A stretch of 43,177 bases of DNA from IMG/VR virus record IMGVR_UViG_3300012923_000005, positions 1-43,177 of that record, one strand, 5' to 3'. Below are positions 13,289 through 27,219 of the stretch, one piece after another. The translations under genes were made by a program, and so were the position numbers. Within the stretch, counting starts at the first letter, position 1. The number at the start of each line of letters is the position of its first letter. The DNA comes from a virus. The notes below the pieces were generated by a model, which saw nothing but the letters and a program-made list of their open reading frames with translations, searched no databases and had not been told where the DNA came from.

Positions 13289-13291
13289 ACT

Positions 13292-13490: not shown

Positions 13491-13495
13491 ATGTT

Positions 13496-13568: not shown

Positions 13569-13575
13569 ATAAAAT

Positions 13576-13647: not shown

Positions 13648-13650
13648 GAA

Positions 13651-13869
13651 CTAGTCGTTGTACTTGTGCGGCATATGCACTAGCCCGTGGCGTGTGCGCG
13701 TACCCTTGGCTTTAGGGCCGGCGATCTGCGCTGCGGTGTAGTGCACACCTGCATCTAGCTTTGGCATCTTGGGACGGTCAATCTTCATCCCCAGGCCAGG
13801 ACGTGGACGAACAGCCCCGTCGAGAGGGGCTGTCAATCCGAACATCTTGCCGCCGGCGATCTTTGCCAT
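13651..13869 (-). CDS. Hypothetical basic protein (72 aa)
   Basis: A 72-aa Lys/Arg/Pro-rich protein starting MAKIAGGKMFGLTAPL and ending RHGLVHMPHKYND. It lies within the tRNA cluster, with its stop codon three bases from tRNA-Trp. The leader contains a hairpin (AAAGCACG, 5-nt loop, CGTGCTTT at 13889-13909). No family is recognised. Fixed gene-tRNA spacing suggests one polycistronic precursor. Confidence 0.55.
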   Translation of the reverse strand: MAKIAGGKMFGLTAPLDGAVRPRPGLGMKIDRPKMPKLDAGVHYTAAQIAGPKAKGTRTRHGLVHMPHKYND

Positions 13870-13919
13870 ATGTGCTTTACAAGGATCAAAAGCACGGGAT
13901 TCGTGCTTTATAGGTACTC

Positions 13920-13993
13920 TGGAGTGTCGTTCTGGTATCGCGCCAGATATGGCGTTCTTTCACAGAGAAGGCCGGCTACTTAGCCGACGACAC
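13920..13993 (-). tRNA. tRNA-His (GTG), atypical elbow
   Basis: Perfect acceptor GTGTCGT/ACGACAC followed by TCCA, anticodon loop CTGTGAA on a 4-bp plus one mismatch stem, T-arm TCTGG/CGCGATA/CCAGA. The D-arm is GGCT/AAGT/AGCC, a 4-nt loop without GG. The first base lacks an obvious G-1 partner. Confidence 0.6.
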
Positions 13994-14052
13994 GAATAGA
14001 TGCCACGTCTTTTTATATAGCGGCTACGTGGCCAAACGCGCTATCGCGATTC

Positions 14053-14138
14053 TGGTGCAGCGTCTAGGAATCGAACCTAGAGGGAGGTTAGTCGGCAGGG
14101 TTACAGCCTGCCCCGTCTCCATACCGGTCTAACGCTAC
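14053..14138 (-). tRNA. tRNA-Tyr (GTA)
   Basis: An 86-nt class II tRNA, the first of the cluster in the direction of transcription. Acceptor GTAGCGT/ACGCTGC, anticodon arm GCAGG/CTGTAAC/CCTGC, extended variable region, T-arm CTAGG/TTCGATT/CCTAG and ACCA encoded. Confidence 0.92.
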
Positions 14139-14506: not shown

Positions 14507-14692
14507 ACTGTCCCTAGTTGCCGTCTTGGTGACGGCTGCAAAGCGCAGAGAGTTCTAGATAGCGAAGCTAGATTAGCTCCGACAGTCCCAGTATCTGGTC
14601 CTGTCTTCGCGGAGTCACCAAAGACGAAGCGTCTTTGTCTCCTCCGTTAGTCGTCGTGCTATCAAGCACTCCTCCTAACTAATCTAAGAAAT
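14507..14692 (-). other. Leader region of the late/tRNA arm
   Basis: No convincing gene lies here. On the minus strand it holds two AGGAGGA-type sites followed only by very short frames, and an inverted repeat AAAGACG-CTT-CGTCTTT near 14617-14633. It is probably the untranslated leader of the late transcript. Confidence 0.4.
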
Positions 14693-14755
14693 CTTATCCC
14701 TTGCCAATGTTCTTCAGTCGTTTTAGTACTTTTGTTCCAAACTTGGAACAGAAAC
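14693..14755 (-). promoter_or_regulatory. Putative phage-sigma promoter repeat, copy R1 (late arm)
   Basis: On the minus strand this differs from the 26768-26827 copy at only about five positions and shares the GGAAC-N16-CTGAA core with 22404-22455. It points into the leader of the late/tRNA arm, about 190 bp before the first ORF. Its upstream half contains the palindrome TGTTCCAA-AC-TTGGAACA. It resembles an ECF-like bipartite promoter, and the phage encodes a sigma factor. Confidence 0.65.
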
Positions 14756-14930
14756 TACACGCCAAACTACTGAAAGTAGAAAGGTTTCTACCCGTCGCGA
14801 TGTCGAATTTTTCTACATCGCAAAAAAGCCAATTAGTACTACTATTCAGGGAAATCCTGAGAGATTTGATAAAGTCTATGTTATCAAACTACTTTAGACT
14901 TGAAGCAATTTCTAGTCATTTAGCGCGGTT
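14733..14930. repeat. AT-rich cluster of perfect inverted repeats
   Basis: Four perfect inverted repeats lie in about 155 bp: TGTTCCAA/TTGGAACA (14733-14750), GTAGAAA/TTTCTAC (14776-14791), GCGATGT/ACATCGC (14797-14821) and TTTGATAA/TTATCAAA (14865-14888). The segment is visibly more AT-rich than the genome. Candidate replication origin or multi-operator control region; the plus-strand ORF across it looks non-coding. Confidence 0.55.
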
Positions 14931-14943
14931 TAAGCGGCGCTAG

Positions 14944-15356
14944 TAGCCGTCCTGTTTCGTATTCCTGTTAACACCCGCCACAAAAGTATCTATTCATCAG
15001 CACTTTCAATTAGTTATCTCTTGTGATTAGGGACTCGGTTTTACCTGTTTCGTGGCTGTGCTGGGGTCCGGGACAAAACAAAACTGGATACCGGGGGGAC
15101 CCCCTGCCTTTATAGCTCGTTCGAGCTCGTTATAGCTGCAGCAGCCTGGATGTAGTGAGATGTAGTGATACGATGCCGACTCACGGAATCGGTTGGATGC
15201 CTAAGCTATTGATCTTATATGTAGTAGATATAGTAGCGATATAGTTACCCCCAAGTATTACCCCCAGCTTAAGAGAGAGGTAGATAGGATGGGGTCAATT
15301 GGCTGCTGATCTAGATATGGTGGGGGTAACGAGTACAGCGGGGCTGCTCCCACGTC
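14944..15356. other. Intergenic region: probable attP and control sequences
   Basis: I see no gene here. It holds the palindrome AGCTCG-TT-CGAGCT (about 15116-15129), a G6/C5 inverted repeat near 15092, direct repeats of GATGTAGTGA (about 15150-15175), two TATAGT motifs at 15220-15245, and GTTACCCCC-type sites described separately. Confidence 0.5.
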
Positions 15357-15545
15357 CTATCCACTCACTGGCACGGGATGCTTAGGGGAATAGACAGCTG
15401 TCTTGATTACCCAACCATCATCGAGAGTAGTGACAGAGCTGTGTGGTGTCTCCTTAGCCATTGATAATGCTTCGGAATAGTCCTCTGTCTCTCTGCGAGC
15501 AGCAACGGTATTCCCGTTGTAGTTCTCGATTGAGTAGTAATACAT
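15357..15545 (-). CDS. Hypothetical small protein (62 aa)
   Basis: A 62-aa protein beginning MYYYSIENYNGNTVAARRE. I use ATG 15545 because GGAG lies 6 nt upstream; the frame opens at 15557. It stands alone, divergent from the 69-aa gene and integrase, in the putative attP region. Size and location would suit a small DNA-binding or recombination-directionality factor, but no helix-turn-helix is evident. Confidence 0.55.
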   Translation of the reverse strand: MYYYSIENYNGNTVAARRETEDYSEALSMAKETPHSSVTTLDDGWVIKTAVYSPKHPVPVSG

Positions 15546-15589
15546 TTGCGTCTCCATCTAGTCAGTGATTACGATGGGTAGACTATACC

Positions 15590-15630
15590 GATTCGATTCC
15601 GTACTTTGCAAGTCTTGATTCGATTCCGTA
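15590..15630. repeat. 14-bp direct repeat upstream of integrase operon
   Basis: GATTCGATTCCGTA occurs at 15590-15603 and 15617-15630, a 27-bp period. It lies between the divergent 62-aa gene and the 69-aa/integrase genes, so it is a candidate regulator or recombinase binding site. Confidence 0.5.
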
Positions 15631-15685
15631 TTGTGCTGTCTGTCGCAGTTACCCCCGATACAATACCCCCAGGAGAGTACTCATC

Positions 15686-15895
15686 ATGCCTATCGATATA
15701 GTTAAGCCGACTCCAGCTCAGATCCGAATAGATGCACTCGCTGGTATGGCATGGTGGAATGCCCTGAGCGAGGTAGACCGTGCTAGATGGCTGGAAACTG
15801 CTCGGAAGCGTAACCAGCTAGCAGCTGGGCATGTCCGTTACACACTCGATGATATCCCGTCAGCTGCTGACGCATGGGCTGCATTCAAGGCTTAG
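15686..15895 (+). CDS. Hypothetical protein (69 aa) upstream of integrase
   Basis: A 69-aa protein with AGGAG 11 nt before ATG. It contains a helical segment (ALAGMAWWNALSEVDRARWLETAR) and ends two bases before the integrase ATG, so the two are probably co-translated. A small gene in this place often encodes an excisionase-like or regulatory protein, but no diagnostic motif is seen. Confidence 0.7.
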   Translation: MPIDIVKPTPAQIRIDALAGMAWWNALSEVDRARWLETARKRNQLAAGHVRYTLDDIPSAADAWAAFKA

Positions 15896-15897
15896 GC

Positions 15898-17124
15898 ATG
15901 TCTAAGCTGATAGCACAGCAACTGGACCATGCCGAGCCACGCCCCAAGCCGTACAAGCTCTACGATGGGGATGGACTGCTGATCATCATTCGTCCCAACG
16001 GTAACAAGTGGTGGAGGTTCAAGTACCGCTATGCGGGGAAAGAGCAGAGCTACTCGGTAGGCGTCTATCCTGTCGTGTCTATTGACGGTGCTAGGGAGAT
16101 CCGTGATTGGTGTAGAGAGCAGCTGTCTAGAGGGATCGATCCCAATACAGTCAAGAGGGAGAGCAAAGCCAGGGAGAGGACAGAGGCAGAGATAGAGCAA
16201 GCCAGGAGGGCTGAGCTAGTGCTCACGCAGTTCAATACCATTGCTGAAGAGTGGTACAAGCTCGAAGAGAAGAAATGGAAAGCTCAGACACTCAGTGCTC
16301 TGAGACAGCGCTTGGATGATTACATTCTGCCTGTCCTGGGAAAGCTGCAGATTGCAGCTATAATAGCCCCGGATTACCTGCCGATACTGCGCAGCCTGGA
16401 GGCTGCGGATAAGCTCGATACGGCTCACAGAGTCAAAGACATCATAGGCAAGGTATTGCGCTACAGCGCGGCTACACGAGCCCTAGGAATCGATACAACG
16501 GGCAACCTGCGCGGCATGCTCGTTCCCATCAAGGGGGATAATCATCAGGCTATAACCGATCCGGATAAGCTAGGTCCTCTACTGCGTTCGATCTGGGATT
16601 ACAACGGCAAGCCCGTTGTGAAAGCAGCGCTACGCCTGGGAGCCTACCTGTACAAGCGTCCATCTGAGCTGCGCCTAGCTGAGTGGCAGGAGTTCAGATG
16701 GAATGATCGAGAGTGGCACATCCCAGGGTTGCATAGAATGAAGATGGAGGAAGACCATATTGTCCCTCTACCATCCCAAGCAGTGGAGATTATCCAGGGA
16801 TTGCAGCAGCTAACAGGCGCTTACCGGTATGTATTCCCGAATGATCATGACTGCGCAGTACCGATGAGCAATGGCTCAATACGCCGCGCCATGATCAAGT
16901 TAGGATATCAAGATCAACATACCGAGCATGGCTGGAGAGCCACAGCTAAGACAATTTTGGAAGAACGTCTGGGGTTCGATTCCAAGTATATCGAGATGAG
17001 CTTAGCTCACGTAGTCAAAGATCCGAATGGGACGGCGTACAATCGGGCTGCGTTTCTTCCTCAGAGGAAGAACATGATGCAGACTTGGGCGGACTATCTT
17101 GACCAGCTGCGGCTTTCTGCTTAG
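15898..17124 (+). CDS. int: Tyrosine integrase (P4-type, DUF4102 N-terminus)
   Basis: A 408-aa recombinase starting at ATG 15898. The N-terminal DUF4102-like region (YKLYDGDGLLIII...KWWRFKYRY, residues 19-44) and a SAM-like core-binding domain precede the catalytic domain. Catalytic residues are visible: Arg254 (KRPSEL), His344-x-x-Arg347, His371 and nucleophile Tyr381 in GTAYNRA. All are intact, so the phage can probably integrate. P4-type integrases commonly use tRNA genes as attB. Repeated GTTACCCCC sites upstream support a nearby attP. Confidence 0.92.
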   Translation: MSKLIAQQLDHAEPRPKPYKLYDGDGLLIIIRPNGNKWWRFKYRYAGKEQSYSVGVYPVVSIDGAREIRDWCREQLSRGIDPNTVKRESKARERTEAEIEQARRAELVLTQFNTIAEEWYKLEEKKWKAQTLSALRQRLDDYILPVLGKLQIAAIIAPDYLPILRSLEAADKLDTAHRVKDIIGKVLRYSAATRALGIDTTGNLRGMLVPIKGDNHQAITDPDKLGPLLRSIWDYNGKPVVKAALRLGAYLYKRPSELRLAEWQEFRWNDREWHIPGLHRMKMEEDHIVPLPSQAVEIIQGLQQLTGAYRYVFPNDHDCAVPMSNGSIRRAMIKLGYQDQHTEHGWRATAKTILEERLGFDSKYIEMSLAHVVKDPNGTAYNRAAFLPQRKNMMQTWADYLDQLRLSA

Positions 17125-17318
17125 GAGGACGGCCTTAGCCGCTTGCCAGGACCCGCTATGCGCTTCTGCGGTATGCGGGGTATACAGGGCAGCCCTACTA
17201 GTCTGCAGTACTCCTGATCGTCTATCAGCCCATATATAGCCAGGGCTTCCGGAGTCCATTCGATTCCCTTTCCCATAAACGCAAAATCCCCCTGTTTCCA
17301 GAGGATCTTACGCGTCAT
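17121..17318 (-). CDS. Hypothetical protein (65 aa), last gene of minus operon
   Basis: A 65-aa protein (MTRKILWKQGDFAFMGKGIE...). It converges on integrase and overlaps its stop by 4 nt. The middle (TPEALAIYGLIDDQEYCRLVGLPC) could form helices. It ends the five-gene minus-strand cluster running from 18213. No family is recognised. Confidence 0.5.
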   Translation of the reverse strand: MTRKILWKQGDFAFMGKGIEWTPEALAIYGLIDDQEYCRLVGLPCIPRIPQKRIAGPGKRLRPSS

Positions 17319-17330
17319 AGAGACTCAGGG

Positions 17331-17483
17331 CTAGCCGTAGATAACGTAGTAGCGGATAGCTCCATATATTAGGTCCAGCTTATCCGCGCGATGCTGCGCC
17401 CGCTTGCGCGATGCGTATCCCTTGCTGACCAGCTTTCCCGTCTGTCCATCCTGTATGTAATACCGGCGATCTAGCGGGCTCAT
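17331..17483 (-). CDS. Small basic protein (50 aa)
   Basis: A 50-aa ORF rich in Tyr, Arg and Lys (YYIQDGQTGKLVSKGYASRKRA). Its ATG overlaps the stop of the 150-aa gene (ATGA), so translation is likely coupled. No family is recognised. A nucleic-acid-binding role would fit its charge but is not shown. Confidence 0.6.
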   Translation of the reverse strand: MSPLDRRYYIQDGQTGKLVSKGYASRKRAQHRADKLDLIYGAIRYYVIYG

Positions 17484-17932
17484 GCTGCTTGTCTCCGTAG
17501 CAGCGCTACGCTGGACTCGTCAGCAGTCTCTTCAGTGACCGCAAAATAAGTTTCTGGATCTACGTATTGCACAGTAAAGCTGGCGGCTAAATTGGCGTAC
17601 TGCTTTCGCCCAATACCGCTGACTTTTGTAAAGCTTGTGCCAGAAAACGCTGTGATACTGGTAACGCCATGCGCGCGGCACCATGTGAGGTATTCCTCGC
17701 GGACGGTTTCCTTGCTGCGGGAATACCCCTCATAACGAGAACGGCGCAGTTTTGGGTTGGAGATCGGCCAAGCCCTGTCCACGCGCACTAGGCGACGTGT
17801 GACCCCCGCCAACTGCTCGAATGCTGCAAAAACTACGGAATACTCGCCGGTTACGTCGGGCCGATAGTCGCGGCCATCAAGTAGCTGCAATTGATATTCG
17901 ATACCGTCAGTCCCTAGGACTATGCGACTCAT
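17480..17932 (-). CDS. Hypothetical protein (150 aa) in regulatory operon
   Basis: A 150-aa protein. The middle (KLRRSRYEGYSRSKETVREEYLTWCRAHG) is basic and helical; no catalytic motif or clear helix-turn-helix is visible. ATGA junctions link it to genes on both sides. It is the largest product of the minus operon divergent from the DUF932 gene, so it is a candidate repressor or lysogeny factor by position. I do not recognise the family. Confidence 0.7.
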   Translation of the reverse strand: MSRIVLGTDGIEYQLQLLDGRDYRPDVTGEYSVVFAAFEQLAGVTRRLVRVDRAWPISNPKLRRSRYEGYSRSKETVREEYLTWCRAHGVTSITAFSGTSFTKVSGIGRKQYANLAASFTVQYVDPETYFAVTEETADESSVALLRRQAA

Positions 17933-18060
17933 GACGCATCTCCCGCGTCACACAGCACCCTACCTAGGATCTGGCCCGGCAGGAAGTCTCCTGTCAGATC
18001 AAACCATTCATTGAAGAACGCCAGCCGTGTCCAAAAGTCTGTGTGTTCGATGATTTCCAT
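17929..18060 (-). CDS. Small acidic protein (43 aa)
   Basis: A 43-aa ORF with several aromatic residues (HTDFWTRLAFFNEWFDLTGDF). Its TGA overlaps the next ATG (ATGA). Conserved gene packing is the main evidence. No function assigned. Confidence 0.55.
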   Translation of the reverse strand: MEIIEHTDFWTRLAFFNEWFDLTGDFLPGQILGRVLCDAGDAS

Positions 18061-18072
18061 TGCCCGTTACTC

Positions 18073-18213
18073 CTATGCCATTAGCGAATCGATTACGCCG
18101 CGCGCTTCCTCTACATCCTTGACTGTCTGGATGTAGACACCTCCCTTCTCTACCCACATAGCCCCAGTCATGCCGTTGCGGCAGATCAGGTAGCTGCGAT
18201 AAGCGGTTTTCAT
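18073..18213 (-). CDS. Small protein (46 aa), first gene of minus operon
   Basis: A 46-aa ORF (MKTAYRSYLICRNGMTGAMW) with a GGAG site upstream. It is the first gene behind the divergent minus promoter at 18250-18277. The N-terminal beta-hairpin-like part resembles short phage proteins of unknown function. Confidence 0.6.
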   Translation of the reverse strand: MKTAYRSYLICRNGMTGAMWVEKGGVYIQTVKDVEEARGVIDSLMA

Positions 18214-18232
18214 CTCTGCAATCTCCGTCAGT

Positions 18233-18389
18233 TCCGATGTAGTAGCTCTACTATATCGTTATAGCTGGAGAATACAAGCCTATCTCGATACAAATAAAGT
18301 GAATCAGTTCACGATATAGTACTTGTATTGCGTTGTAGTTGAGATATAGTAGATCCAACGTCGGAACTAGCTACATCTACTACATCGGA
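18233..18389. promoter_or_regulatory. Divergent promoter/operator region
   Basis: Two matched promoters point outward. The plus one has TTGTAT (18323-18328), 16 bp, TATAGT (18345-18350). The minus one has ATACAA (18272-18277) and ACTATA (18250-18255), again 16 bp apart. Between them is GTGAA-TCAG-TTCAC (18299-18312), an operator-like palindrome. A 13-bp inverted repeat TCCGATGTAGTAG (18233-18245, inverse at 18377-18389) flanks the region just ahead of each gene's RBS. Confidence 0.7.
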
Positions 18390-18399
18390 GATTACGAAC

Positions 18400-19482
18400 A
18401 TGTCACACGAAATAGAAACAGCGGTATTCATGGCTTCTGAAGGGGCGGGCTGGACTGGCCTGGGCAAGGCAATCCCGACTGAGATCGCCAAAGACCCCCG
18501 CAAGATTGCGGAATTCCTGGGAGCCATCTGGACTGTCGAAACTCGCGAAGCCTTCTATAAGAAGGCAGACGGCAGCTACAGCCCCATCAGCGGCGCAGCT
18601 GTGCAGGTCCGCAGCGACACGGGACGTGTCCTGTCAGTCACTTCTGATACGCGGTATCACGTCGCCAACCGGCAGCCCTGCGATGTGTTCGAAGCCTTCC
18701 GAGACGAGCTGGCGTCAAACGGGATGGACATTTCACACGCTGCCGTATTGCGCGGTGGCCAGCAGATTGCTGTCTCTGCGGTGCTGAATGGGGATCACGA
18801 CGTCATAGTAGGTAAGGGAGACGTCCTCAAGTCATACGTGACTCTGAGCACGGGCTACGATAAGAAGCACGGGACCAAGGCGACGAAGGGAACCATCCGC
18901 GTTGTCTGTGCGAACACGCTGCAGATGAGTATCAATCAGGCTGCAAACACAGATCAGCTTCGCGTCATCCGCGCCAGCACAGAGCTGGAATTCAACTCCC
19001 TCAAGGATTTGGTAGCCCAAGTCAAGTACCTCGAAGCTGCTGAGCGCAACACGTTCAATGATCTGGCCAACTGGGAAATGCGTGATGCGGATGTGGCCCG
19101 CTATTTCGCGAATGTGCTTGAGATCAAGATCGAAGATCTGGACAAGCGGAATGTCAACGGCAAGGAACTGGTCAGCACGAAGTCTAAGAACATGCTCGCA
19201 GCCCTGACGAATGCATACACCAAAGCGCCTGGAGCTGTAATTGCCCAGGGGAGTGCTTGGGGTGCACTCAACGCAGTCACCTACTACGCAACGCACGAGA
19301 AGACGGTGCGAGACACAACCGAGGACGGAGCAACGCTGGCCCGTATCGCTTCAAATATCAGCGGAGACAGCGCCAAGCTGAAGCAGCGTGCTCTGAAGTT
19401 GCTCTCCGACACAAAGCCAGAGCTTGCCTCGCTGCTTGCACAGGGGGACGACATGTCCCGTCTGATGCTCAAGGCGGTATGA
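18400..19482 (+). CDS. DUF932 phage/plasmid-like protein
   Basis: A 360-aa protein matching the DUF932 (phage/plasmid-like TIGR03299) pattern: N-terminal WTGLGKAIPTE, FYKKADGSYSPI and SDTRYHVANRQPCDVFEAF, a central TKGTIRVVCANTLQM, and a helical C-terminus. Function of the family is unknown; it is common in plasmids and phages and suspected to act in DNA metabolism. It has its own promoter and an intrinsic terminator, so it is transcribed mostly as a single gene. A GGAG site precedes ATG. Confidence 0.88.
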   Translation: MSHEIETAVFMASEGAGWTGLGKAIPTEIAKDPRKIAEFLGAIWTVETREAFYKKADGSYSPISGAAVQVRSDTGRVLSVTSDTRYHVANRQPCDVFEAFRDELASNGMDISHAAVLRGGQQIAVSAVLNGDHDVIVGKGDVLKSYVTLSTGYDKKHGTKATKGTIRVVCANTLQMSINQAANTDQLRVIRASTELEFNSLKDLVAQVKYLEAAERNTFNDLANWEMRDADVARYFANVLEIKIEDLDKRNVNGKELVSTKSKNMLAALTNAYTKAPGAVIAQGSAWGALNAVTYYATHEKTVRDTTEDGATLARIASNISGDSAKLKQRALKLLSDTKPELASLLAQGDDMSRLMLKAV

Positions 19483-19498
19483 ATCTTTTTACCACCCC

Positions 19499-19538
19499 AA
19501 AGGGGGCATGGCCTAACAAGCATGCTCCCTTTATTTTT
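19499..19538 (+). terminator. Intrinsic terminator after DUF932 gene
   Basis: The inverted repeat AAAGGGGGCATG ... CATGCTCCCTTT (one unpaired base) is followed by ATTTTT. It lies 16 nt after the stop codon and insulates the DUF932 unit from the genes downstream. Confidence 0.8.
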
Positions 19539-19554
19539 GGGAGTTATGCTAATC

Positions 19555-19743
19555 ATGGACAATCACGCAAAACAGCTTCTAGACCAGTGTCGTGATGCGA
19601 TCAAGGCGGGAGACTGGGCCAAGGCTAATGAGCTGCTGGAGCAGTATGAGTATTGGAGAGCCACAGGGGGCGCCGCCCCGCCAGACGGCGATTACCGGGC
19701 GCTGGCTTACCGGATGCAAATCAATATGGGTATGCGGAAGTAG
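19555..19743 (+). CDS. Small helical protein (62 aa)
   Basis: A 62-aa protein (MDNHAKQLLDQCRDAIKAGD...) predicted as two or three helices, rather like a TPR-type hairpin (GDWAKANELLEQYEYWRATGG). GGGAG is about 11 nt upstream of ATG 19555. It stands between the DUF932 terminator and the next promoter, so it must have its own promoter or depend on readthrough. No family recognised. Confidence 0.6.
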   Translation: MDNHAKQLLDQCRDAIKAGDWAKANELLEQYEYWRATGGAAPPDGDYRALAYRMQINMGMRK

Positions 19744-19778
19744 CCACAAAGATATTACGATATATTGTCCAATTGCCG

Positions 19779-19806
19779 TTGTAGCTATATCTGGGGGAGT
19801 TATAGT
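19779..19806 (+). promoter_or_regulatory. Promoter for 19.8-21.3 kb genes
   Basis: TTGTAG (19779-19784), exactly 16 bp, then TATAGT (19801-19806), followed by AGATCC as in the 18345 promoter. The match in hexamers, spacing and flanking AGATCC supports a common promoter class. Confidence 0.6.
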
Positions 19807-19841
19807 AGATCCACTACATAGTTTTGTGGAGTTCCTACTAG

Positions 19842-20243
19842 ATGAACGTAACCCCCCCATTCGTAATCTTCAGCGTATCTCGCACGGAATATGCTGACGA
19901 GCTGACCGCAGATCGAACGGAGTTCGCCGCACGCCAACTCCAGGCCCGCAACATAGCATACATACGTATTGACGGAGTGTTCTCTGGGATCACTACGCGG
20001 GCCTTTCTGGTCTTCACACACGAACGAACGTACGAAGCCCAGGAGATCGAGAGTTTAGCAGCTCGCTACGGACAGAAGAACATTCTGTACGTTGACGCTG
20101 CTGGACTCGCTTATACGCGCCCAATGGATGGGGGACCTGACGAGGAGATAGGGCGCTTTAAAGAAGTCAGCTCGTACGATGCCTCGCGGCGCGAGGGGTA
20201 TCTCTACGTCAATGGCAAGTACTACGCCACAGGGAGTAAGTAG
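19842..20243 (+). CDS. Hypothetical protein (133 aa)
   Basis: A 133-aa alpha/beta protein (FVIFSVSRTEYADELTADRTEF..., ARNIAYIRIDGVFSG, RAFLVFTHERTYEAQEIESLAARYGQ, ILYVDAAGLAYTRPMDGG). It is the first gene after the 19.8 kb promoter and lies just before the phosphoribosyltransferase gene. The strand pattern resembles small nucleotide-binding-type domains, but I see no P-loop or catalytic signature and do not recognise the family. Confidence 0.7.
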   Translation: MNVTPPFVIFSVSRTEYADELTADRTEFAARQLQARNIAYIRIDGVFSGITTRAFLVFTHERTYEAQEIESLAARYGQKNILYVDAAGLAYTRPMDGGPDEEIGRFKEVSSYDASRREGYLYVNGKYYATGSK

Positions 20244-20245
20244 CG

Positions 20246-20662
20246 ATGGATATCTTGCACAGACCAAACGGCTATTTTGATGAACTGTTTACGCAGCCGG
20301 CGGAAGTCCTCTCCTATGCAGTCGCGGAGCTGACAGGAAAAGACTTCGATACGATAGTCGGGTCAGGACTATCCGGCACTGTCGCAGCAACACTCATTGC
20401 CCATCAGATGGGCAAGAATCTAGTAGTTGTCCGCAAGGCTACCGAAAACTCCCACAGTTCTAACCTTATCGAGGGGAAGCTGGGGAAGCGATGGATATTC
20501 ATTGACGACTTCATAGCCAGCGGAGCAACGCTGAGTCGCTGTAAGGATGCCGTGCGCGCCACTGCATTAGGGTACGCATTCGATACACAGTACGTCGGCG
20601 CCTACCTCTACGCACGTCGCAGTAATACCTACGCGCCTGCTTGGGAAGATGCACCGCTATGA
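20246..20662 (+). CDS. Phosphoribosyltransferase-like protein
   Basis: A 138-aa protein of the type I PRTase fold. The PRPP-binding signature WIFIDDFIASGATL lies at residues 83-96 with paired Asp87-Asp88. A loop VGSGLSGTVAATLIAHQMG at 38-56 matches the upstream strand-loop-helix. The enzyme would transfer phosphoribose from PRPP to a base or related acceptor; the missing hood gives no clue to the acceptor. GGAG precedes ATG. It is an unusual auxiliary gene for a 43 kb phage. Confidence 0.8.
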   Translation: MDILHRPNGYFDELFTQPAEVLSYAVAELTGKDFDTIVGSGLSGTVAATLIAHQMGKNLVVVRKATENSHSSNLIEGKLGKRWIFIDDFIASGATLSRCKDAVRATALGYAFDTQYVGAYLYARRSNTYAPAWEDAPL

Positions 20663-20754
20663 AGGATGTTATCTGGCTAGCCACGCTAGTCCGGCTGTTT
20701 GGCTGGGCTGTATCCCTAACCGTTCTAGGACTCATATGGGGGCACCATATATGA
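20659..20754 (+). CDS. 31-aa single-span membrane peptide
   Basis: A short ORF, MKDVIWLATLVRLFGWAVSL followed by 11 more residues, forming one hydrophobic span. It overlaps the PRTase stop (ATGA) and the next start (ATGA), which argues for real coupled translation. Function unknown. Confidence 0.6.
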   Translation: MKDVIWLATLVRLFGWAVSLTVLGLIWGHHI

Positions 20755-21266
20755 GCGAATGTAACCTACCGCCGTATAGGGCCAGTAAGGCTCTAGAAGA
20801 CTTCATCAAGGTACAAGCCGGCCCTCACTACATCTGTGATGAAGGGACGTGCATGGCTGATCTGGACGCGCTACAGCGCTGGAAAGAGCAGCACGGAGAC
20901 GAGCGATTCCATACGCCTATCCCGGTGTATCCCTGTGGGTCTGATTCCCCATTCACGCCAGAAGGAGATGCAGCCTATCAGGCGTGGCATGACCGGCTAC
21001 ATGCAGAGGGGGAGTACGAGTTCAACATTGCAGGGGAGCTGAAGCTAGCAGGCGTGCATATGGCGCTAGCCAAGCGCGGGGGACTCTCAGACCATGACGT
21101 GATGTTCCTGTATCACTTCATCGTTACCCGCGTGATGTATCACTACTGGCACGATGGAAAAGATCCCCCGGACCGCGCCCGCTTCATCACCGCATGCTTT
21201 GTGTACGGTTGCCGAGCTGCGGCCAGGGGAGATCATGAATTGCAATATGCAGACCACTGCAGTTAG
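20751..21266 (+). CDS. Hypothetical protein (171 aa)
   Basis: A 171-aa protein starting MSECNLPPYRASKALEDFI at ATG 20751, coupled to the 31-aa peptide gene. It is rich in His, Tyr and Trp, with Cys residues near YICDEGTCMADL and FITACFVYGC. The helical middle (LKLAGVHMALAKRGGLSDHD) has no catalytic motif. It overlaps the convergent HTH gene by 4 nt. Family not recognised. Confidence 0.7.
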   Translation: MSECNLPPYRASKALEDFIKVQAGPHYICDEGTCMADLDALQRWKEQHGDERFHTPIPVYPCGSDSPFTPEGDAAYQAWHDRLHAEGEYEFNIAGELKLAGVHMALAKRGGLSDHDVMFLYHFIVTRVMYHYWHDGKDPPDRARFITACFVYGCRAAARGDHELQYADHCS

Positions 21267-21607
21267 GAGCGATTCTTATTAGCCCACGCGCCTAGCAGCT
21301 GTGCCAGATCCAGAATCTGAGTGATAGACGGATTACTGCCTGGGACAATCGTCTGTGTGTGATCCAAATTGTCATCTGGAGTGTCATTCCTTGAAACTAA
21401 CAATTGATCTATCGGAACGTCGGGATTCTTCATAGCCACGGAATAGGCGTACTTACCGAGCCACTGTTCTAGCTGGTAAGTCTGCAGTCCGTACTTAGTC
21501 TTGGCAGCTTCGAAAGTGACTTTGCGAGAGAGAACTGCCGCAGCAACTTCATGCTTCTGTTCCGTCGTGAAGTAGTCGCGCGTTCGATGCTCTGGTTTCT
21601 TAGTCAT
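21263..21607 (-). CDS. Transposase-type HTH regulator-like protein (114 aa)
   Basis: This protein has an N-terminal helix-turn-helix of the IS3/HTH_28 type: FTTEQKHEVAAAVLSRK followed by FEAAKTKYGLQTYQLEQWLGKY (about residues 13-55). I start it at ATG 21607 (GGAG upstream); a TTG at 21682 would add 25 residues. It is transcribed divergently from the sigma factor gene across a ~120 bp region containing the palindrome TTGG-GAA-CCAA, so it probably regulates that pair. No transposase catalytic domain is present. Confidence 0.65.
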   Translation of the reverse strand: MTKKPEHRTRDYFTTEQKHEVAAAVLSRKVTFEAAKTKYGLQTYQLEQWLGKYAYSVAMKNPDVPIDQLLVSRNDTPDDNLDHTQTIVPGSNPSITQILDLAQLLGAWANKNRS

Positions 21608-21730
21608 GAACAAATGCTCCAGTAATCCACAAGTTGATGGGTTATTGCCTTGATTCTTGGGAACCAAATAATACTTAGCCAAAATTCGAAATCTGTGACG
21701 GAAGTCGCATTAGATAAAAGGGATATAGTT

Positions 21731-22438
21731 ATGTCAATAGTTGCTGAGATAAATCAGACTGATGTCGCAGTAGAGCACGTCGCAAAATCGCTACAACCGG
21801 AAGCAATCTTAACCCTTGTTAATTCGATCCTCAGTACGCTGTCCAGGCGATATAGCCTGCAATATGCAGACCAAGAGGACCTTAGACAGGCTGGGACCAT
21901 TGCTGCTCTGCAGATATACGAGGGCTATGATCCAGACGAAGGGACGATAGAAGCCTTCCTAGCCCCCCGCATCCGCTTTGCCATGCTGGATGAGATGGAT
22001 ACGCTCCACGCTGGCGGCATTACAGGCGATTACAGCGGAGATCGGCCTACCAGCCTAGAGACGCGCCAGCCTGATTGGTTCCAGGCTAATAGCGCTTCTC
22101 TGGACGATGGGAGCAGCACTCCGTCAGAACCTACGCTAAGGGAATCCCTGGAAGATACAGGCAGCCCGGATCTGGACCGGGAAAAGCTTGCAGACGATGT
22201 AGTTGCTGCTTTATCGAGCCTCCCCTACCGGTCTAGCTCCATTCTAGTGCGCTACTACGGACTCAGGGGGGTCACTCCGCACACTATGCGGGAGCTTGCG
22301 GGCAAGTACCGGGTAGGAGTGGCGGAGATCCATCGGCGAATTGACCGAGCCCTGAAAGAGCTGAAAGATATAGTCGAATCAACTACATCTAGCTATATCG
22401 CCGGACAGAATTTGGAACAAAAACACGAAAACGACTGA
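21731..22438 (+). CDS. Phage-encoded sigma-70-family sigma factor
   Basis: A 235-aa protein. Region 2 lies at about residues 46-90 (YADQEDLRQAGTIAALQIYE, then EAFLAPRIRFAMLDEMD), including the core-binding DLRQAG motif. Region 4 lies at about 162-214 with a helix-turn-helix (PHTMRELAGKYRVGVAEIHR then RIDRALKELK). An acidic, disordered ~70-aa linker replaces region 3. It would redirect host RNA polymerase to phage promoters. ATG 21731 is preceded by AAAAGGGA. Three promoter-like repeats in this genome are candidate targets, one overlapping its own 3' end. Confidence 0.85.
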   Translation: MSIVAEINQTDVAVEHVAKSLQPEAILTLVNSILSTLSRRYSLQYADQEDLRQAGTIAALQIYEGYDPDEGTIEAFLAPRIRFAMLDEMDTLHAGGITGDYSGDRPTSLETRQPDWFQANSASLDDGSSTPSEPTLRESLEDTGSPDLDREKLADDVVAALSSLPYRSSSILVRYYGLRGVTPHTMRELAGKYRVGVAEIHRRIDRALKELKDIVESTTSSYIAGQNLEQKHEND

Positions 22439-22455
22439 ATAACAGTGGCCAGGGC
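22404..22455 (+). promoter_or_regulatory. Putative phage-sigma promoter repeat, copy R3
   Basis: This shares TTTGGAACAAAA, AAAACGACTGAA and the spacing GGAAC-N16-CTGAA with the copies at 14693-14755 (minus strand) and 26768-26827. It is the most diverged copy. It overlaps the last codons of the sigma gene and points to the gene at 22659. Confidence 0.6.
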
Positions 22456-22658
22456 TCTGATTTGTGCCCATTTATCAACCCTGGGCCAGTTTCATACCCA
22501 AGTATGTGCTGAGGCTAGCTAGGGCTAGCAACCGGAATACACCGGATTCTGTGACTCGGATCTGATCTTAATTGCTCGTCTTTGTTGACTCGCAAGGAAG
22601 AAATGAAACGGCCATAGAAAGGGCTAGGTTTTGTCTGAATTTAGGAGATTTGATCAAT
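22456..22658 (+). other. Leader region before the replication block
   Basis: No gene is apparent. It contains short inverted repeats (GCTAGC-TAGG-GCTAGC, CCGG-AATACA-CCGG) and ends with TAGGAGA ahead of ATG 22659. It looks like an untranslated leader of the R3 transcript. Confidence 0.4.
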
Positions 22659-22898
22659 ATGGCTATTGTAAAAGTTGTTCGTGCCGTGCCTGTCATTCCT
22701 GTGATCGAGAAAGTTGTACTTGAGCTGACGGAGCAGGAAGCCCATGACTTGCGCTGGATAGTTGGCAGCATTGGTGGACATTACGAGCTTTCCCCGCGCA
22801 AGACGCTATCCGACATCTGGAGTGCTCTGGCGGACGCGGGTATCGAAGGTACTGACGGGTTCAAGTTCCGAAACGGAGCTGTAATTGATCGTGAGTGA
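22659..22898 (+). CDS. Hypothetical protein (79 aa)
   Basis: A 79-aa protein from ATG 22659, which has TAGGAGA upstream; the frame opens earlier but without an RBS. Sequence ELTEQEAHDLRWIVGSIGGH followed by LSDIWSALADAGI resembles small phage proteins with a conserved helix and GG turn. It is the first gene behind R3. Function unknown. Confidence 0.7.
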   Translation: MAIVKVVRAVPVIPVIEKVVLELTEQEAHDLRWIVGSIGGHYELSPRKTLSDIWSALADAGIEGTDGFKFRNGAVIDRE

Positions 22899-23160
22899 TC
22901 GTCACGAGCTTTTCGATGAACTAGACGCCTGTGAAAGGCGCTGGCGCAGTACATACATGACTCTGGCAGAAGCTGCTGCCGGCTGCAGATGCCTAGATCT
23001 GTTCGCAGACTACTTAGCCACTCCTGCAGGACTCGCCTACGCCCAGCGTCACGCCAATGTACCGACGTATCTGCAGGATATCCAGAGGGAGCAAGCGCTG
23101 GCCAGATCAGCCTCTCTACCTTTCAATCTCCAGACAGTTGGGAGTGTCAAGAATGTATAG
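22891..23160 (+). CDS. Hypothetical helical protein (89 aa)
   Basis: An 89-aa helical protein (HELFDELDACERRWRSTYMT...). GTG 22891 overlaps the upstream gene; TTG 22885 is the alternative. It overlaps the next gene by 8 nt. No family is recognised; the translationally coupled position supports it. Confidence 0.65.
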   Translation: MSDRHELFDELDACERRWRSTYMTLAEAAAGCRCLDLFADYLATPAGLAYAQRHANVPTYLQDIQREQALARSASLPFNLQTVGSVKNV

Positions 23161-23713
23161 GCTGATATTCGGAATACCGGGATGGCTACTGTACTTCATC
23201 CTGATGACTACGCTGATGCTGTTAGGAGTTCCACTGATAGCTCTGGCAATCCACTATCAAGCCTATCGAGACCAAAAAGATGATGGGTTTGTTCGTACTC
23301 ACTGGGTAAATAGTTGGATGTGGCTTTGGGACAATGACGAAGATGGGATAGACGGAGACGCTATTAGCAGTACAGGGGGCTGGAAAAATCTAGATTGGAT
23401 AAAGGCGACGAACAGGTGGAGCGTAGCTAAGCGGATCTTCATATGGAGTGCATGGCGGAACAGTGTAGGGAATGCCCGATGGACAAGGCTGTTTGGGATG
23501 ACGGTAGATCCTAGGCAGGTACATGTCTGGTATCCGACAGAAGAGATGAACCTCAAATTAGGTCCGTACCTTGTACGTCAGGGCTGGCGGTACGAGCTGC
23601 GATTCCCGTGGGGCAGCAGCAAGTGCTTCTTCTGGATGGGCTGGCGGATAGCTCAGCAGACACAGAAGACAGAGGCAGTAGGGTTTGCATTCCAGCCCTT
23701 TGGCAAGCTTTGA
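23153..23713 (+). CDS. Membrane-anchored phage protein, DUF7338-like
   Basis: A 186-aa protein. Residues 2-35 form one or two membrane spans (IFGIPGWLLYFILMTTLMLL, then GVPLIALAIHY). The soluble part is Trp/Arg-rich with WLWDNDEDGIDGD and KRIFIWSAWRNSVGNARW. From memory this pattern matches DUF7338, widespread in phages and of unknown function. GGAG lies 9 nt before ATG 23153. A membrane location is clear; the role is not. Confidence 0.7.
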   Translation: MYRLIFGIPGWLLYFILMTTLMLLGVPLIALAIHYQAYRDQKDDGFVRTHWVNSWMWLWDNDEDGIDGDAISSTGGWKNLDWIKATNRWSVAKRIFIWSAWRNSVGNARWTRLFGMTVDPRQVHVWYPTEEMNLKLGPYLVRQGWRYELRFPWGSSKCFFWMGWRIAQQTQKTEAVGFAFQPFGKL

Positions 23714-23759
23714 GAGCCAAAGTGGTTGTTAACCTTGTTAACTGTCCGTGGGGGAAGTT

Positions 23760-24407
23760 ATGAGTATCCGCTGGCAGGGCACCCCGCAGAAGCCCACACA
23801 GCTGAAGCCATTCGAAGGGGCTCTGTATCCACTGGCCGCAGAAGATTTAGCATTCTTCAGAGCGAAATACGAGATAGACACATTATACGCGCACTACCAC
23901 ATACAACGTGGATTTGATAATCGTGTCTGGACTGATCGCTACGTAATGTCTATTTGGAGCCCAGTAGGTAAGCGCAGGGGGCGTGTTAGTCGGGAAGGTT
24001 GGGAGGGCAGCCCGTTAGAGGCTGTCAGTCGCGGACGAGTTAAGGCGCTTACTTCACCAGAAGTGCAGGAGCCTCTACAGAGCTGGTATTTAAAAAGGGC
24101 TAGTGCAGATAGCTTGATTGTAGTTGAAGATCAGCTATCCGCTATCAAGCTTTATTCCCACGGCTTTAGCGCTGTTGCTCTGCTAGGCGTGCCAGGGGAC
24201 GGCAACATAGGAGCAGACAGGGTTAGGGAGCTAGCCAGCTGGAGCCGTGGGGAAGTGATCATAGCCTTGGATGCAGATGCTACAGACAAGGCTTTCGAGT
24301 TCGCCAGACGCTGGGGGATGGCATTCAGGAAGCTCCGCGTAGCCATCCTAGAACGGGATCTGAAAGATGAACCAGCAGCTAACTTCGGAGAGGTGCTAGG
24401 GCTATGA
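23760..24407 (+). CDS. Toprim-domain protein, primase-like
   Basis: A 215-aa protein with a Toprim fold: Glu in SLIVVEDQLSAIKLYSHG (about residues 118-135) and the DxD motif in VIIALDADATDKAFEFA (about 173-189). The N-terminal ~100 residues lack a typical zinc-binding primase domain. It lies just ahead of the DnaB-like helicase gene, so it probably primes DNA synthesis or forms a split version of the T7 gp4 primase-helicase. ATG 23760 with GGGGGAAG upstream is preferred to GTG 23748. Confidence 0.75.
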   Translation: MSIRWQGTPQKPTQLKPFEGALYPLAAEDLAFFRAKYEIDTLYAHYHIQRGFDNRVWTDRYVMSIWSPVGKRRGRVSREGWEGSPLEAVSRGRVKALTSPEVQEPLQSWYLKRASADSLIVVEDQLSAIKLYSHGFSAVALLGVPGDGNIGADRVRELASWSRGEVIIALDADATDKAFEFARRWGMAFRKLRVAILERDLKDEPAANFGEVLGL

Positions 24408-24634
24408 AGATATCGATAAAAGACTTGTCCGGCGATCTATTGGTAATAGAAGGCTGGCACGAAAAAGTTATCCTGACTGCTGCCACAAAAGGGCCTAGAG
24501 CCGGTGCAGCAACTATAGCATTTAATCTAGATCATGCCAGGACTGTAGTTGTTGCCTTGAGCAACGCGATTGCGCACGAAGAAGCCAATAAGACCCGTAG
24601 GCTGTCAAGGGAGAGTCAATGTCCGGCTATCTAA
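24404..24634 (+). CDS. Hypothetical protein (76 aa)
   Basis: A 76-aa protein with an ATGA overlap to the Toprim gene. The N-terminus is beta-rich (MKISIKDLSGDLLVIEGWHE) and the rest helical (DHARTVVVALSNAIAHEEA). No family recognised. Coupled position in the replication block supports expression. Confidence 0.65.
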   Translation: MKISIKDLSGDLLVIEGWHEKVILTAATKGPRAGAATIAFNLDHARTVVVALSNAIAHEEANKTRRLSRESQCPAI

Positions 24635-24738
24635 TGCATCTCGGTTGCTGGCTGGGGAGGTTCCCCAGAGCTGTACAACGGATACGGCGCAGACGCGCTG
24701 CATGGAGATGGGCATTAACAAGAGGGAGAAGTTTGTAA
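24619..24738 (+). CDS. Small Arg/Trp-rich peptide (39 aa)
   Basis: A 39-aa ORF starting at ATG 24619 behind GGGAGAG. It is strongly basic (residues 16-30 hold nine Arg) with several Trp. It overlaps its neighbours by 16 nt and, via a TAATG junction, by 1 nt. Reading between two coupled genes suggests it is translated; function unknown. Confidence 0.45.
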   Translation: MSGYLMHLGCWLGRFPRAVQRIRRRRAAWRWALTRGRSL

Positions 24739-24899
24739 TGCGATTCTGGATTGGAGGGGCACTAGGGACGGCGGTTGCCATGCTCGGCAGCGCAGGTATT
24801 ACTATAGGGCTGCATTTGGATACTGCCGCAGCGGTCCTAATAGGTATATCACTTGGTACGCTTCTACCCGTTGCTGGAGTTCTTATCGCGGATGCTTGA
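24738..24899 (+). CDS. Two-span membrane protein (53 aa)
   Basis: A 53-aa hydrophobic protein with two Gly/Ala-rich membrane helices (FWIGGALGTAVAMLGSAGIT and AAAVLIGISLGTLLPVAGVL). ATG 24738 overlaps the preceding TAA and has GGGAG upstream. It ends inside the helicase start. Function unknown; it may anchor replication proteins or be an inner-membrane modulator. Confidence 0.65.
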   Translation: MRFWIGGALGTAVAMLGSAGITIGLHLDTAAAVLIGISLGTLLPVAGVLIADA

Positions 24900-26100
24900 T
24901 GCAGAAATCCTAGCGGCAGCAATCGCTAGCAGAGAAGCTTACGACAGGGTAAGCCCGCACATCACCGGGAAGGATCTAACTCCCGATGTCGGATTCTGGT
25001 ACGACCTAGTAGGAGCATGGTATGAGAGAGATCGCAACGCTAGTAGCGTCGATGTTAACGCTATTCGGGCTCTGGGGGAGTCTCGCATATCTAACCCAAA
25101 GCAACGTGAATCTATTCTCGTTGCTATTGGTAATCTCCCTGTTGCTGTTAGTGCTAGCAACGTGGCTCATACAGCGCTGGAGATCAAGAGGCACAATACA
25201 GGGCTTGAGCTTGCAGCAGCCATCGCCAAAGGCGACACGAAGCGAACCCAGAGGCTCCACGTGCTTTATGGGGATCTGCTCAAAGCCACGGAGTTAGGCT
25301 CTAAGAAGCGGCCAGAGTGGCAGCTAGCCACATCGATTGACGAGCTGTTCAGTAAGGTAGGGAATGCAAACAGAATCCCAATTGCTCCTAACGTCCTTAA
25401 TCAACGCATTAATGGCGGAGCACTCCCCGGCCATCATATCGTCGTATATGCACGCCCAGAGATGGGGAAAAGCACATTTGCTATTAACTTTGCCGTACAG
25501 CTTGCCATCAGAGGGCACAGAGTCCTCTATGTCGGCAACGAGGATCAAATTGATATCCTTAAATCACGATCTGTCAGCAGAGCTACCCAGCTAACAGCCG
25601 CAGAGATCGAGCAGGATCTAGCCAAGGCTATCAAGCTCTACAGGGATCGCGGCGTAGAGGATCGCCTTATCTTCGGGCAGCTCAGAGACGGCAATCCCGA
25701 CACAATCAGGAAGCTTGTTGATGAATACGAACCGCAGATTCTAGTTATTGATCAGATCCGTAACCTTGCCGGCGGGGGGGATGGCCTTGTAGCTAATTTG
25801 GAAGCCAACGGGCAGGCCGTCAGACGAATCCTACTCGAATATGGCCTTATCGGCCTTAGCGTCTCTCAGGCTGGCGTAAGCGCTGATTTCAAGCTGTGGC
25901 TTGATATGGGGGATCTGGACAGCTCTAAGACTGGGCTGCCGGGGACAGCTGACTTGCTTATCGGCATCGGCGCTACGCAGGAGATGTTAGACCGCAACCA
26001 GCGGGCGCTAGCCTTGCCTAAGAACAAGCTCAGCTCTGCCGCCAATGCCCATGAAGGGATCATAGTGGAAATTGACAAGTCACGGAGTCTGTACAAATGA
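24892..26100 (+). CDS. DnaB-like replicative helicase
   Basis: A 402-aa RecA-fold helicase. The N-terminal ~130 residues are helical, like DnaB's N-domain. Walker A is ARPEMGKST at residues 187-195, Walker B ILVID at 283-287, and RNLAGGG with downstream SQAGVSADF and LPGTADLLIGI correspond to later DnaB motifs. It would unwind the phage fork ahead of the family A polymerase. ATG 24892 follows GGAG. The Toprim protein 0.5 kb upstream is the likely primase partner. Confidence 0.85.
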   Translation: MLDAEILAAAIASREAYDRVSPHITGKDLTPDVGFWYDLVGAWYERDRNASSVDVNAIRALGESRISNPKQRESILVAIGNLPVAVSASNVAHTALEIKRHNTGLELAAAIAKGDTKRTQRLHVLYGDLLKATELGSKKRPEWQLATSIDELFSKVGNANRIPIAPNVLNQRINGGALPGHHIVVYARPEMGKSTFAINFAVQLAIRGHRVLYVGNEDQIDILKSRSVSRATQLTAAEIEQDLAKAIKLYRDRGVEDRLIFGQLRDGNPDTIRKLVDEYEPQILVIDQIRNLAGGGDGLVANLEANGQAVRRILLEYGLIGLSVSQAGVSADFKLWLDMGDLDSSKTGLPGTADLLIGIGATQEMLDRNQRALALPKNKLSSAANAHEGIIVEIDKSRSLYK

Positions 26101-26462
26101 GAGTTATTGTCAGTGGAGGACGGGACTATAAGGACAGAGCCAGCGTATACCAATGGCTAGACCGGCTGTTTATCGAAGTAGACGGCTATGACTGCAATCC
26201 TGCTGTTGAGCTGATTGTAGGAGGTGCCAGAGGGGTAGATACGTTTGCAGAACAATGGGCAATAGAGAGGCTCGTAAGCTATGACGTATACAGAGCCGAC
26301 TGGGAAGCCGACGGCAAGGCTGCGGGACCTATCCGCAACCGCCGGATGCTGGAGGAAGGCAAGCCAGACTTGGTTATAGCTTTCCCTGGGGGCAGAGGTA
26401 CGGCAAACATGATCGAGATTGCACGTAAGGCCAGGGTAGCTGTATTGGAGATCCCAGAATGA
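26097..26462 (+). CDS. SLOG-domain (DUF2493, YspA-like) protein
   Basis: A 121-aa Rossmann-like protein. It has the SLOG signature: N-terminal VIVSGGRDYKD, central IVGGARGVDTFAEQWA, NRRMLEEGKPDLVIAFPGGRGTANM and a final strand. SLOG/DUF2493 domains bind nucleotides or nucleotide-derived ligands. It overlaps the helicase stop (ATGA). Role in the phage is unknown; a link to nucleotide sensing is inference. Confidence 0.85.
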   Translation: MRVIVSGGRDYKDRASVYQWLDRLFIEVDGYDCNPAVELIVGGARGVDTFAEQWAIERLVSYDVYRADWEADGKAAGPIRNRRMLEEGKPDLVIAFPGGRGTANMIEIARKARVAVLEIPE

Positions 26463-26746
26463 AGATTGAACGGAAGGGGCTGGAGAAGTCTCTGGCAATC
26501 GTTGCAGAGATCCTGACGGCGCGTAAGCGCTGGGGGAAGGGGATGCGTAGCCCCTACACCCCAGATCAGCTGTATGACGCGCTAATCGTGCTAGACGAGC
26601 ATGGCCGGTTCACTGGCACGTCTGACGAGGAAGTGACAAAGCTTCGGCGGCAATTAGCCGCATGCCAGAATAGAGAAAAGGGGCGCAAGTCTGCACTAAC
26701 TCCAGACGAAATTGTCTACGGCAAGACTTCGCCGGAAGCCCCGTAA
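26459..26746 (+). CDS. Hypothetical protein (95 aa)
   Basis: A 95-aa basic, helical protein (GLEKSLAIVAEILTARKRWG..., VTKLRRQLAACQNREKGRKS) with an ATGA overlap to the SLOG gene. The C-terminal half may be a short coiled coil. It ends the block before repeat R2. No family recognised. Confidence 0.65.
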   Translation: MKIERKGLEKSLAIVAEILTARKRWGKGMRSPYTPDQLYDALIVLDEHGRFTGTSDEEVTKLRRQLAACQNREKGRKSALTPDEIVYGKTSPEAP

Positions 26747-26767
26747 ATCTAGCACTTTCGCATCAGA

Positions 26768-26827
26768 TTCTGTTCCAGACTTGGAACAAAAGTCCTAAAA
26801 CGACTGAAGAACATTGGCAAGGGATGA
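26768..26827 (+). promoter_or_regulatory. Putative phage-sigma promoter repeat, copy R2
   Basis: This copy matches the R1 repeat (14693-14755 reversed) almost base for base through CATTGGCAAGGGAT, and has GGAAC-N16-CTGAA. It lies in the only real gap of this gene block, upstream of the 120-aa gene and DNA polymerase. Confidence 0.65.
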
Positions 26828-26855
26828 GTTTTTCAAACAACGGAGATTCCAGACG

Positions 26856-27218
26856 ATGTGCGGATTCAAAGGATATGTGAAGGAGCCCGTTCCTTCGGTA
26901 GAGATCACGCGAGACTCCCTCTCGTATACCGAGCCGGTCTATGCAATTCGGCATCTGACGAAAGATCAGATTCAGTACGTAATCGGCGCACTTGGTACCA
27001 CGCTCGCCAATGACACTCCAGTTGGTCAGGCGACGTATGAAGTGCTTTTCGAGGAAGCCATAAAGGCGGATCTCGAAATCAATCCGGTGACGCTGGGATT
27101 GCTCAAGGTCTCGGATCTGCCGACAGCTGAGGCTTTCTTTTACGAGACGATTGTCCCGGCTGTGATTGCCAAGTCGAAGGCGAACGCGCGGGCAACGCAG
27201 GCAGCCGCAACGGTCTAA
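26856..27218 (+). CDS. Hypothetical protein (120 aa) upstream of DNA polymerase
   Basis: A 120-aa protein beginning MCGFKGYVKEP, with CGGAG before ATG 26856. It looks mixed alpha/beta (VYAIRHLTKDQIQYVIGALG, AEAFFYETIVPAVIAKSKAN). It is the first gene behind R2 and is followed within 2 nt by the polymerase start. It may be a polymerase accessory factor, but nothing in the sequence proves that. Confidence 0.65.
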   Translation: MCGFKGYVKEPVPSVEITRDSLSYTEPVYAIRHLTKDQIQYVIGALGTTLANDTPVGQATYEVLFEEAIKADLEINPVTLGLLKVSDLPTAEAFFYETIVPAVIAKSKANARATQAAATV

Positions 27219-27219
27219 G

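Follow-up and report, generated by a model that had tools for sequence, protein, structure and literature searches.

Transcription in phage T7 and other Autographiviridae is at first host-dependent, after which the replication and late genes are transcribed under phage direction, in T7 by a single-subunit RNA polymerase with ∼23 bp promoters. In the large virulent phages SPO1 (gp28 and gp33-34) and T4 (gp55), which have many promoters in each class, phage sigma factors drive the middle or late genes. The phage sigma factors of phiEco32 (gp36) and 7-11 (gp47) (PMC8948821, PMC4331800) are 15% identical, and it has been shown experimentally that their sigma-dependent promoters are dissimilar in sequence and lie at similar genome positions (PMC8948821); there are six such promoters in phiEco32 and eight in 7-11 (PMC8948821, PMC4331800), those of 7-11 having the form GTAAtg-(16)-aCTA (PMC8948821). 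Vibrio phage VpV262 has been assigned to those members of the T7 supergroup that have no RNA polymerase (PMC6775973). The present analysis concerns a relative of VpV262, the phage of IMG/VR virus record IMGVR_UViG_3300012923_000005, whose whole 43,177 bases are called the window below; a 123 bp direct repeat at both ends indicates that the record is probably complete. The window carries three ∼60 bp promoter-like elements (R1, R2, and R3) and a gene for a sigma-70-family factor, and comparison with related phages makes it quite likely that host core RNA polymerase, equipped with the phage's own sigma, uses the elements as promoters.

Each element consists of GGAAC, 16 bp, and CTGAA, with conserved DNA flanking these boxes on either side:

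14689..14756, minus strand: R1, promoter-like, at the head of the tRNA/late arm; GGAAC at 14734-14738 (−35-like), CTGAA at 14713-14717 (−10-like)
22411..22463, plus strand: R3, promoter-like, in front of the replication block and overlapping the sigma gene at its 3′ end; GGAAC at 22414-22418, CTGAA at 22435-22439
26765..26832, plus strand: R2, promoter-like, ahead of a small gene and the DNA polymerase gene; GGAAC at 26783-26787, CTGAA at 26804-26808

A first-pass annotation of this DNA had reported three GGAAC-N16-CTGAA repeats at the heads of gene blocks, and both statements are borne out. Exact matches to the pattern number three in the window (14713-14738 on the minus strand, 22414-22439 and 26783-26808 on the plus strand), each copy is oriented on the transcribed strand into the gene block that follows it, and R3 covers the final codons and the stop of the sigma gene. 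Over 62 aligned positions of the extended copies, R1 and R2 agree at 56, R1 and R3 at 47, and R2 and R3 at 44; a repeat-finding tool aligned 68 nt of R1 and R2 at 90% and 53 nt of R1 and R3 at 83%. The short consensus by itself is near chance (four matches with one mismatch allowed vs 2.45 expected), but a weight matrix made from R1-R3 gives the three copies scores of at least 69.8 and the next best site in the window 0.7, and thus there is no fourth copy. The conserved stretch reaches 15-18 nt beyond CTGAA. An exact-pattern search of the viral collection for the R element found nothing, as did a DNA search of the window against named phages, and within the collections searched the exact R sequence is private to this phage. 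The R1 leader, which would form the start of the late/tRNA transcript (14600-14708, minus strand), folds far better than its shuffled versions (z −5.2) and has no Rfam match; a strong stem surrounds CAAAGACGCUUCGUCUUUG. Just 3′ of R3 (22447-22487, plus strand) there is a possible CCAGGG...CCCUGG stem, although the R3 leader overall has a z of only −0.8 against shuffles.

The sigma gene, which begins with the ATG at 21731 and ends with its stop at 22438, is the following feature:

21731..22438, plus strand: phage sigma-70-family factor, 235 amino acids, with region 2 and region 4 (both Pfam regions over cut-off, PHROG 351, TIGR02937, predicted fold)

The assignment to the sigma-70 family made in the first-pass annotation stands, since Pfam finds both Sigma70_r2 (31.1 bits, cut-off 24) and Sigma70_r4 (25.7 bits, cut-off 24.1); TIGR02937, a broad superfamily model, is passed narrowly (44.1, cut-off 42.9). 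The AlphaFold model has a mean pLDDT of 67.6, with regions 2 and 4 at about 80-90, and the best PDB matches of the predicted fold in Foldseek are sigma factors. No model of the extracytoplasmic function (ECF) subfamilies scores over its cut-off, and the nearest subfamily, FliA/WhiG, matches weakly and in region 2, at 39.0 bits against a cut-off of 189.6, too low for membership. Because it passes TIGR02937 but no subfamily model, the protein is a divergent two-domain sigma and is not demonstrably ECF. The FliA/WhiG (sigma28) promoter, TAAA-N15-GCCGATAA, is matched at 10 of 12 positions by one copy of the element in a relative (G040, below) and at 6-9 positions by the other elements.

A single-protein search of the viral collection with the window sigma found nothing, and since the R element had given no matches either, relatives were sought through the DNA polymerase. 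Its closest named relative is that of VpV262, a member of the Zobellviridae (41% identity over 97%), and by polymerase type and the layout of two opposed arms the window phage is related to that family, formal family placement aside. The polymerase-based searches gave about 140 related contigs, terminase, helicase, and capsid queries brought in few further genomes of use, and a scan of bacterial genomes gave one contig with a similar polymerase and otherwise distant polymerases. This contig (JASJCT010000065.1, 44 kb, from a Myxococcota metagenome-assembled genome; polymerase 45% identical to that of the window) may be a phage contig and a hint to the host of the group. Pfam detected a sigma factor in 10 of the phage records examined, the window not counted, and none in VpV262; where the arrangement is visible, the genes for primase, helicase, and polymerase follow that for sigma.

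Four divergent VpV262-related phages (G005, G040, G045, and G054) each carry an element of their own, specific to the lineage, at the same three sites as the window: the 3′ end of sigma, the DNA immediately 5′ of the DNA polymerase gene (or of the small gene that precedes it), and the start of the late arm. The copies at these orthologous sites are always on the transcribed strand. The R1 site is filled in these four, the R3 site also in G069, and the R2 site also in G069 and L013:

G005 (IMGVR 3300033067_000720; DNA polymerase 56% identical to that of the window): dispersed repeat AGATACTTCTAGTAAGGG with an upstream box, unlike R, at three places only: 39181-39230 at the sigma 3′ end, 1118-1167 directly before the polymerase gene, and 34690-34739 (minus strand) at the tRNA/late head
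G040 (3300050821_005589): GACCGATATAGATATATGGGG-type elements at the same three places, 6621 (plus), 11148 (plus), and 955 (minus)
G045 (3300008050_000099): copies of CGGGATATATTGTAGTTG at the 3′ end of sigma and at the late head; a diverged third copy, cut by the contig end, lies directly before the polymerase gene
G054 (3300025687_000049): GTTRAC-N16-CGATAATAGTAATATT at 26789 (plus), 30452 (plus), and 20787 (minus)
G069 (3300002460_000106): GGTAAC-N16-CCTTCAAGCCGCGGA at the sigma 3′ end and upstream of the polymerase gene, with a third copy in the right arm; a partial fit, the late head being beyond the contig
L013: copies 5′ of the polymerase gene and 2.5 kb earlier, at the contig edge; also a partial fit

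The third G005 copy (34690-34739) is weaker, with a score of 21.5 where the maximum in 100 shuffled genomes was 18.9. Most of the elements have a −35-like box, 16-17 nt, and then a −10-like box, the boxes of the relatives having been chosen by eye on aligned copies; 16 nt separate the boxes in R, G054, and G069, 16 or 17 in G045, and 17 in L013, and the G040 element fits the same two-box frame. The −35-like boxes of the relatives are GTTRAC, GGTAAC, TTGTGC, GGTGAC, or A-rich, and GGAAC is found in the window phage only. The suggestion of an ECF-type system from GGAAC is thus not supported, given these other boxes and a sigma that resembles FliA/WhiG weakly in region 2. The kind of site, unlike its exact sequence, is also not confined to the window phage.

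As a null test, the pair formed by the end of the sigma gene and the region upstream of the polymerase gene (in G045, the sigma end and the late head) was compared with 2,000 random pairs of gene ends and gene starts from the same genome. The R3-R2 score of 31.2 in the window was reached once, all other random pairs scoring 15.9 or less; equally high scores were given by none of the random pairs in G005 and G045, two in G069, seven in G054, and eight in G040. These counts are conservative, as the elements were incompletely purged and some of the exceptions are probably elements themselves. The results for G040, G054, and G069 are individually modest, and their weight comes from recurrence at the same places. 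The proteins of the window and G040 diverge unequally: polymerase is 68% identical, helicase 63%, exonuclease 60%, primase 48%, and sigma 33%, and the two phages hold different element sequences at the same three places. Across these phages, then, the element sequence diverges along with sigma, and its positions are kept. The proposal in the first-pass annotation that the repeats are promoters matched to the phage sigma is therefore strengthened insofar as five phages keep elements at three sites whose sequences change with sigma; that R1-R3 function as promoters, depend on the phage sigma, and act in a temporal order is what we infer from sequence. Repeats in relatives that lack the sigma gene were named there as a finding that would speak against the match, and the repeat scan found no three-site set in complete or near-complete relatives without a detectable sigma, VpV262 included; the borderline case was G058, in which a candidate sigma was found.

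The course of infection that we propose involves the following other features of the window:

15874..17124, plus strand: tyrosine integrase, in the presumed early region (profile matches)
21263..21682, minus strand: small gene with a transposase-like helix-turn-helix, beside the sigma gene (weak Pfam and PHROG matches)
22659..22898, plus strand: first gene 3′ of R3 (open reading frame list and sequence), its start picked at an ATG with a ribosome-binding site
23748..24407, plus strand: TOPRIM primase-like gene of the replication block (weak Toprim matches; the order sigma-primase-helicase-polymerase is kept in relatives)
24853..26100, plus strand: DnaB-like replicative helicase (profile matches)
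26856..27218, plus strand: small gene between R2 and the polymerase gene (open reading frame list and sequence)
27166..29202, plus strand: family A DNA polymerase, 41% identical to that of VpV262 (profile and sequence matches); its true start is probably some codons within this listed frame
11929..14138, minus strand: nine tRNA genes with which the late arm opens, 3′ of R1 (tRNA search)
14733..14750: palindrome TGTTCCAAACTTGGAACA covering the −35-like box of R1, a possible operator (read from the sequence)
26771..26788: palindrome TGTTCCAGACTTGGAACA covering the −35-like box of R2, a possible operator (read from the sequence)

Transcription would begin with the host sigma70 holoenzyme on the early region (about 15.6-22.4 kb), which includes the integrase and sigma genes. 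The phage sigma would next open R3 for the replication block, R2 for the right arm from the small gene and the DNA polymerase onward, and R1 for the tRNA/late arm. Because R3 lies at the 3′ end of the sigma gene, a promoter there would not feed the sigma gene itself. The palindrome TGTTCCA-N4-TGGAACA over the −35-like box is present in R1 and R2 and absent from R3, and it may be speculated that as an operator it would let a repressor hold those two elements and leave R3 free; no repressor gene was recognized among the small early open reading frames tested. In L009 an open reading frame (110-475) has the same place and direction as the small helix-turn-helix gene of the window. The description of the phage as temperate and T7-like in the first-pass annotation is apt in that the window phage has an integrase, but no homolog of that integrase was found in the relatives compared, VpV262 included.

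Several observations weigh against the elements being promoters of the phage sigma. Conservation continues past the −10-like box to about +8, beyond the needs of a plain sigma promoter, and some conservation beyond this box is seen in every lineage with elements. The elements of G054, G045, and L013 match the host sigma70 consensus at 9-11 of 12 positions, so the host holoenzyme could use the elements in some relatives. The box spacing of the G005 element is less certain, and the sigma-bearing G003, G020, G022, G025, and G043 gave no convincing site set (the null test found nothing in the first four and only a coding match in G043). Finally, G058 (L359-L361) has three copies of a TGTCACAATTATTTGACTAAGCTA-type element at 7579 (minus), 18190 (plus), and 27805 (plus), one of which is upstream, not downstream, of the candidate sigma, a 175-amino-acid open reading frame (18277-18804). 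The conservation and the sigma70-like relatives would suit elements that are promoters of the host primary holoenzyme controlled by another phage DNA-binding protein, one that recognizes either the conserved start-site region or the palindromes over the −35-like boxes of R1 and R2, with the phage sigma serving other sites. This appears unlikely, given that R1-R3 and the elements of G005 and G069 are not sigma70-like (6-8 of 12 positions vs a shuffled mean of 7.3), that the palindrome is missing from R3, that no repressor was recognized, and that the elements lie next to a sigma gene that changes fast and vary along with it.

Elements that are not promoters at all, but binding sites or RNA leader signals at block heads (for example, in antitermination, replication, or packaging), are a considerably less probable explanation. 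Part of the conserved sequence would indeed be transcribed and the R1 leader folds unusually well, but such structure is not common to the three (z of −0.3 for the R2 leader and, as above, nearly as little for R3), the Rfam search gave no match except tRNA, most lineages have two boxes at 16-17 nt, and the copies at orthologous sites are all oriented with transcription, a constraint not required of replication or packaging sites. The close likeness of R1 and R2 might also reflect a recent internal duplication without function, an idea to which we give almost no credence since four other phages hold unrelated sequences at the same three sites. A T7-type promoter reading, prompted by the string ACGACT, was dropped because no RNA polymerase was found and the string is not common to relatives.

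Repeats of other kinds were seen in the relatives. In G058 another TGTCACAATTATTTGACTAAGCTA-type copy precedes genes ahead of a ribonucleotide reductase. A sigma hidden Markov model, for which the G058 score is circular because that protein was included in building it, gave independent but weak matches in G048 and G049, neither of which was found to have a three-site set; the G049 repeats and those at 28811 and 29995 in G043 look coding, and the G043 match of the null test (14.4) lies within coding sequence. The sigma-bearing G020 (L098) and G025 (L099) have repeated perfect palindromes, AAGCTTGTACGTACAAGCTT at 1443, 3806, and 12300 and AACCTTAACATGTTAAGGTT at 4991, 6687, 8312, 12586, and 19234, respectively, several of them near gene boundaries, which look like repressor operators. 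G068 (L362-L364), without a detectable sigma, has many copies of ATGTTGTCTAGACAACAT (e.g., at 10532, 11420, 12699, 15580, and 20769). The palindromic repeats of G020, G025, and G068 differ in kind from the R-type elements. G010 (L104-L105), also without a detectable sigma, has two perfect TTGACA-N17-TATAAT promoters that have a downstream box in common (38024-38072 and 43939-43987, minus strand), which are probably early promoters, and G014 (L106) has two copies of GATGAYGACATACCCTTTTAGKAGTA, at 3995 and 11402 (plus strand).

In the open-access literature searched, no paper describing a VpV262-type three-site sigma system was found, and the papers found hold no description of how T7-related phages without an RNA polymerase switch to replication and late transcription. 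We lean, if only slightly, toward the broader view that a lineage of the T7 supergroup without RNA polymerase runs its replication and late program from three sites with a rapidly diverging sigma, sigma and sites changing in step at constant positions; such co-change might possibly reflect an arms race with host transcription control or the exclusion of co-infecting relatives. Three sites and one sigma would be a concrete and testable answer for part of these phages. At least five natural sigma-element pairs with differing sequences and one architecture should be useful in studies of how sigma specificity evolves, and the pairs are candidate orthogonal transcription parts.

VpV262 and roseophage SIO1 represent the T7 supergroup without RNA polymerase, and the comparison was made here with VpV262. 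It shares with the window phage the order primase-helicase-polymerase and opposed replication and structural arms; VpV262 has no RNA polymerase, and none was found in the window, where the largest open reading frame encodes 686 amino acids and PF00940 gave no match in a search without a positive control. VpV262 has no detectable sigma, no three-site repeat set, and no integrase homolog. Unlike T7 and other Autographiviridae, the window phage is proposed to use a sigma factor and bipartite sites, and unlike SPO1 and T4 it would do so with one sigma and three sites. The closest precedent, by analogy, is phiEco32 compared with 7-11. The window phage is not of the phiEco32 lineage (no phiEco32-type phage was among the polymerase matches listed, the relatives being of VpV262 type), and its group, known here from sequence alone, has three fixed sites rather than six or eight promoters, with a promoter-like site at the 3′ end of the window sigma gene itself. 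Nevertheless, as in phiEco32 and 7-11, the phage sigma would redirect host core polymerase to the late (and middle) blocks; the R elements are bipartite with a 16 nt spacer like the 7-11 promoters; and in both groups different element sequences stand at equivalent positions alongside diverged sigma factors.

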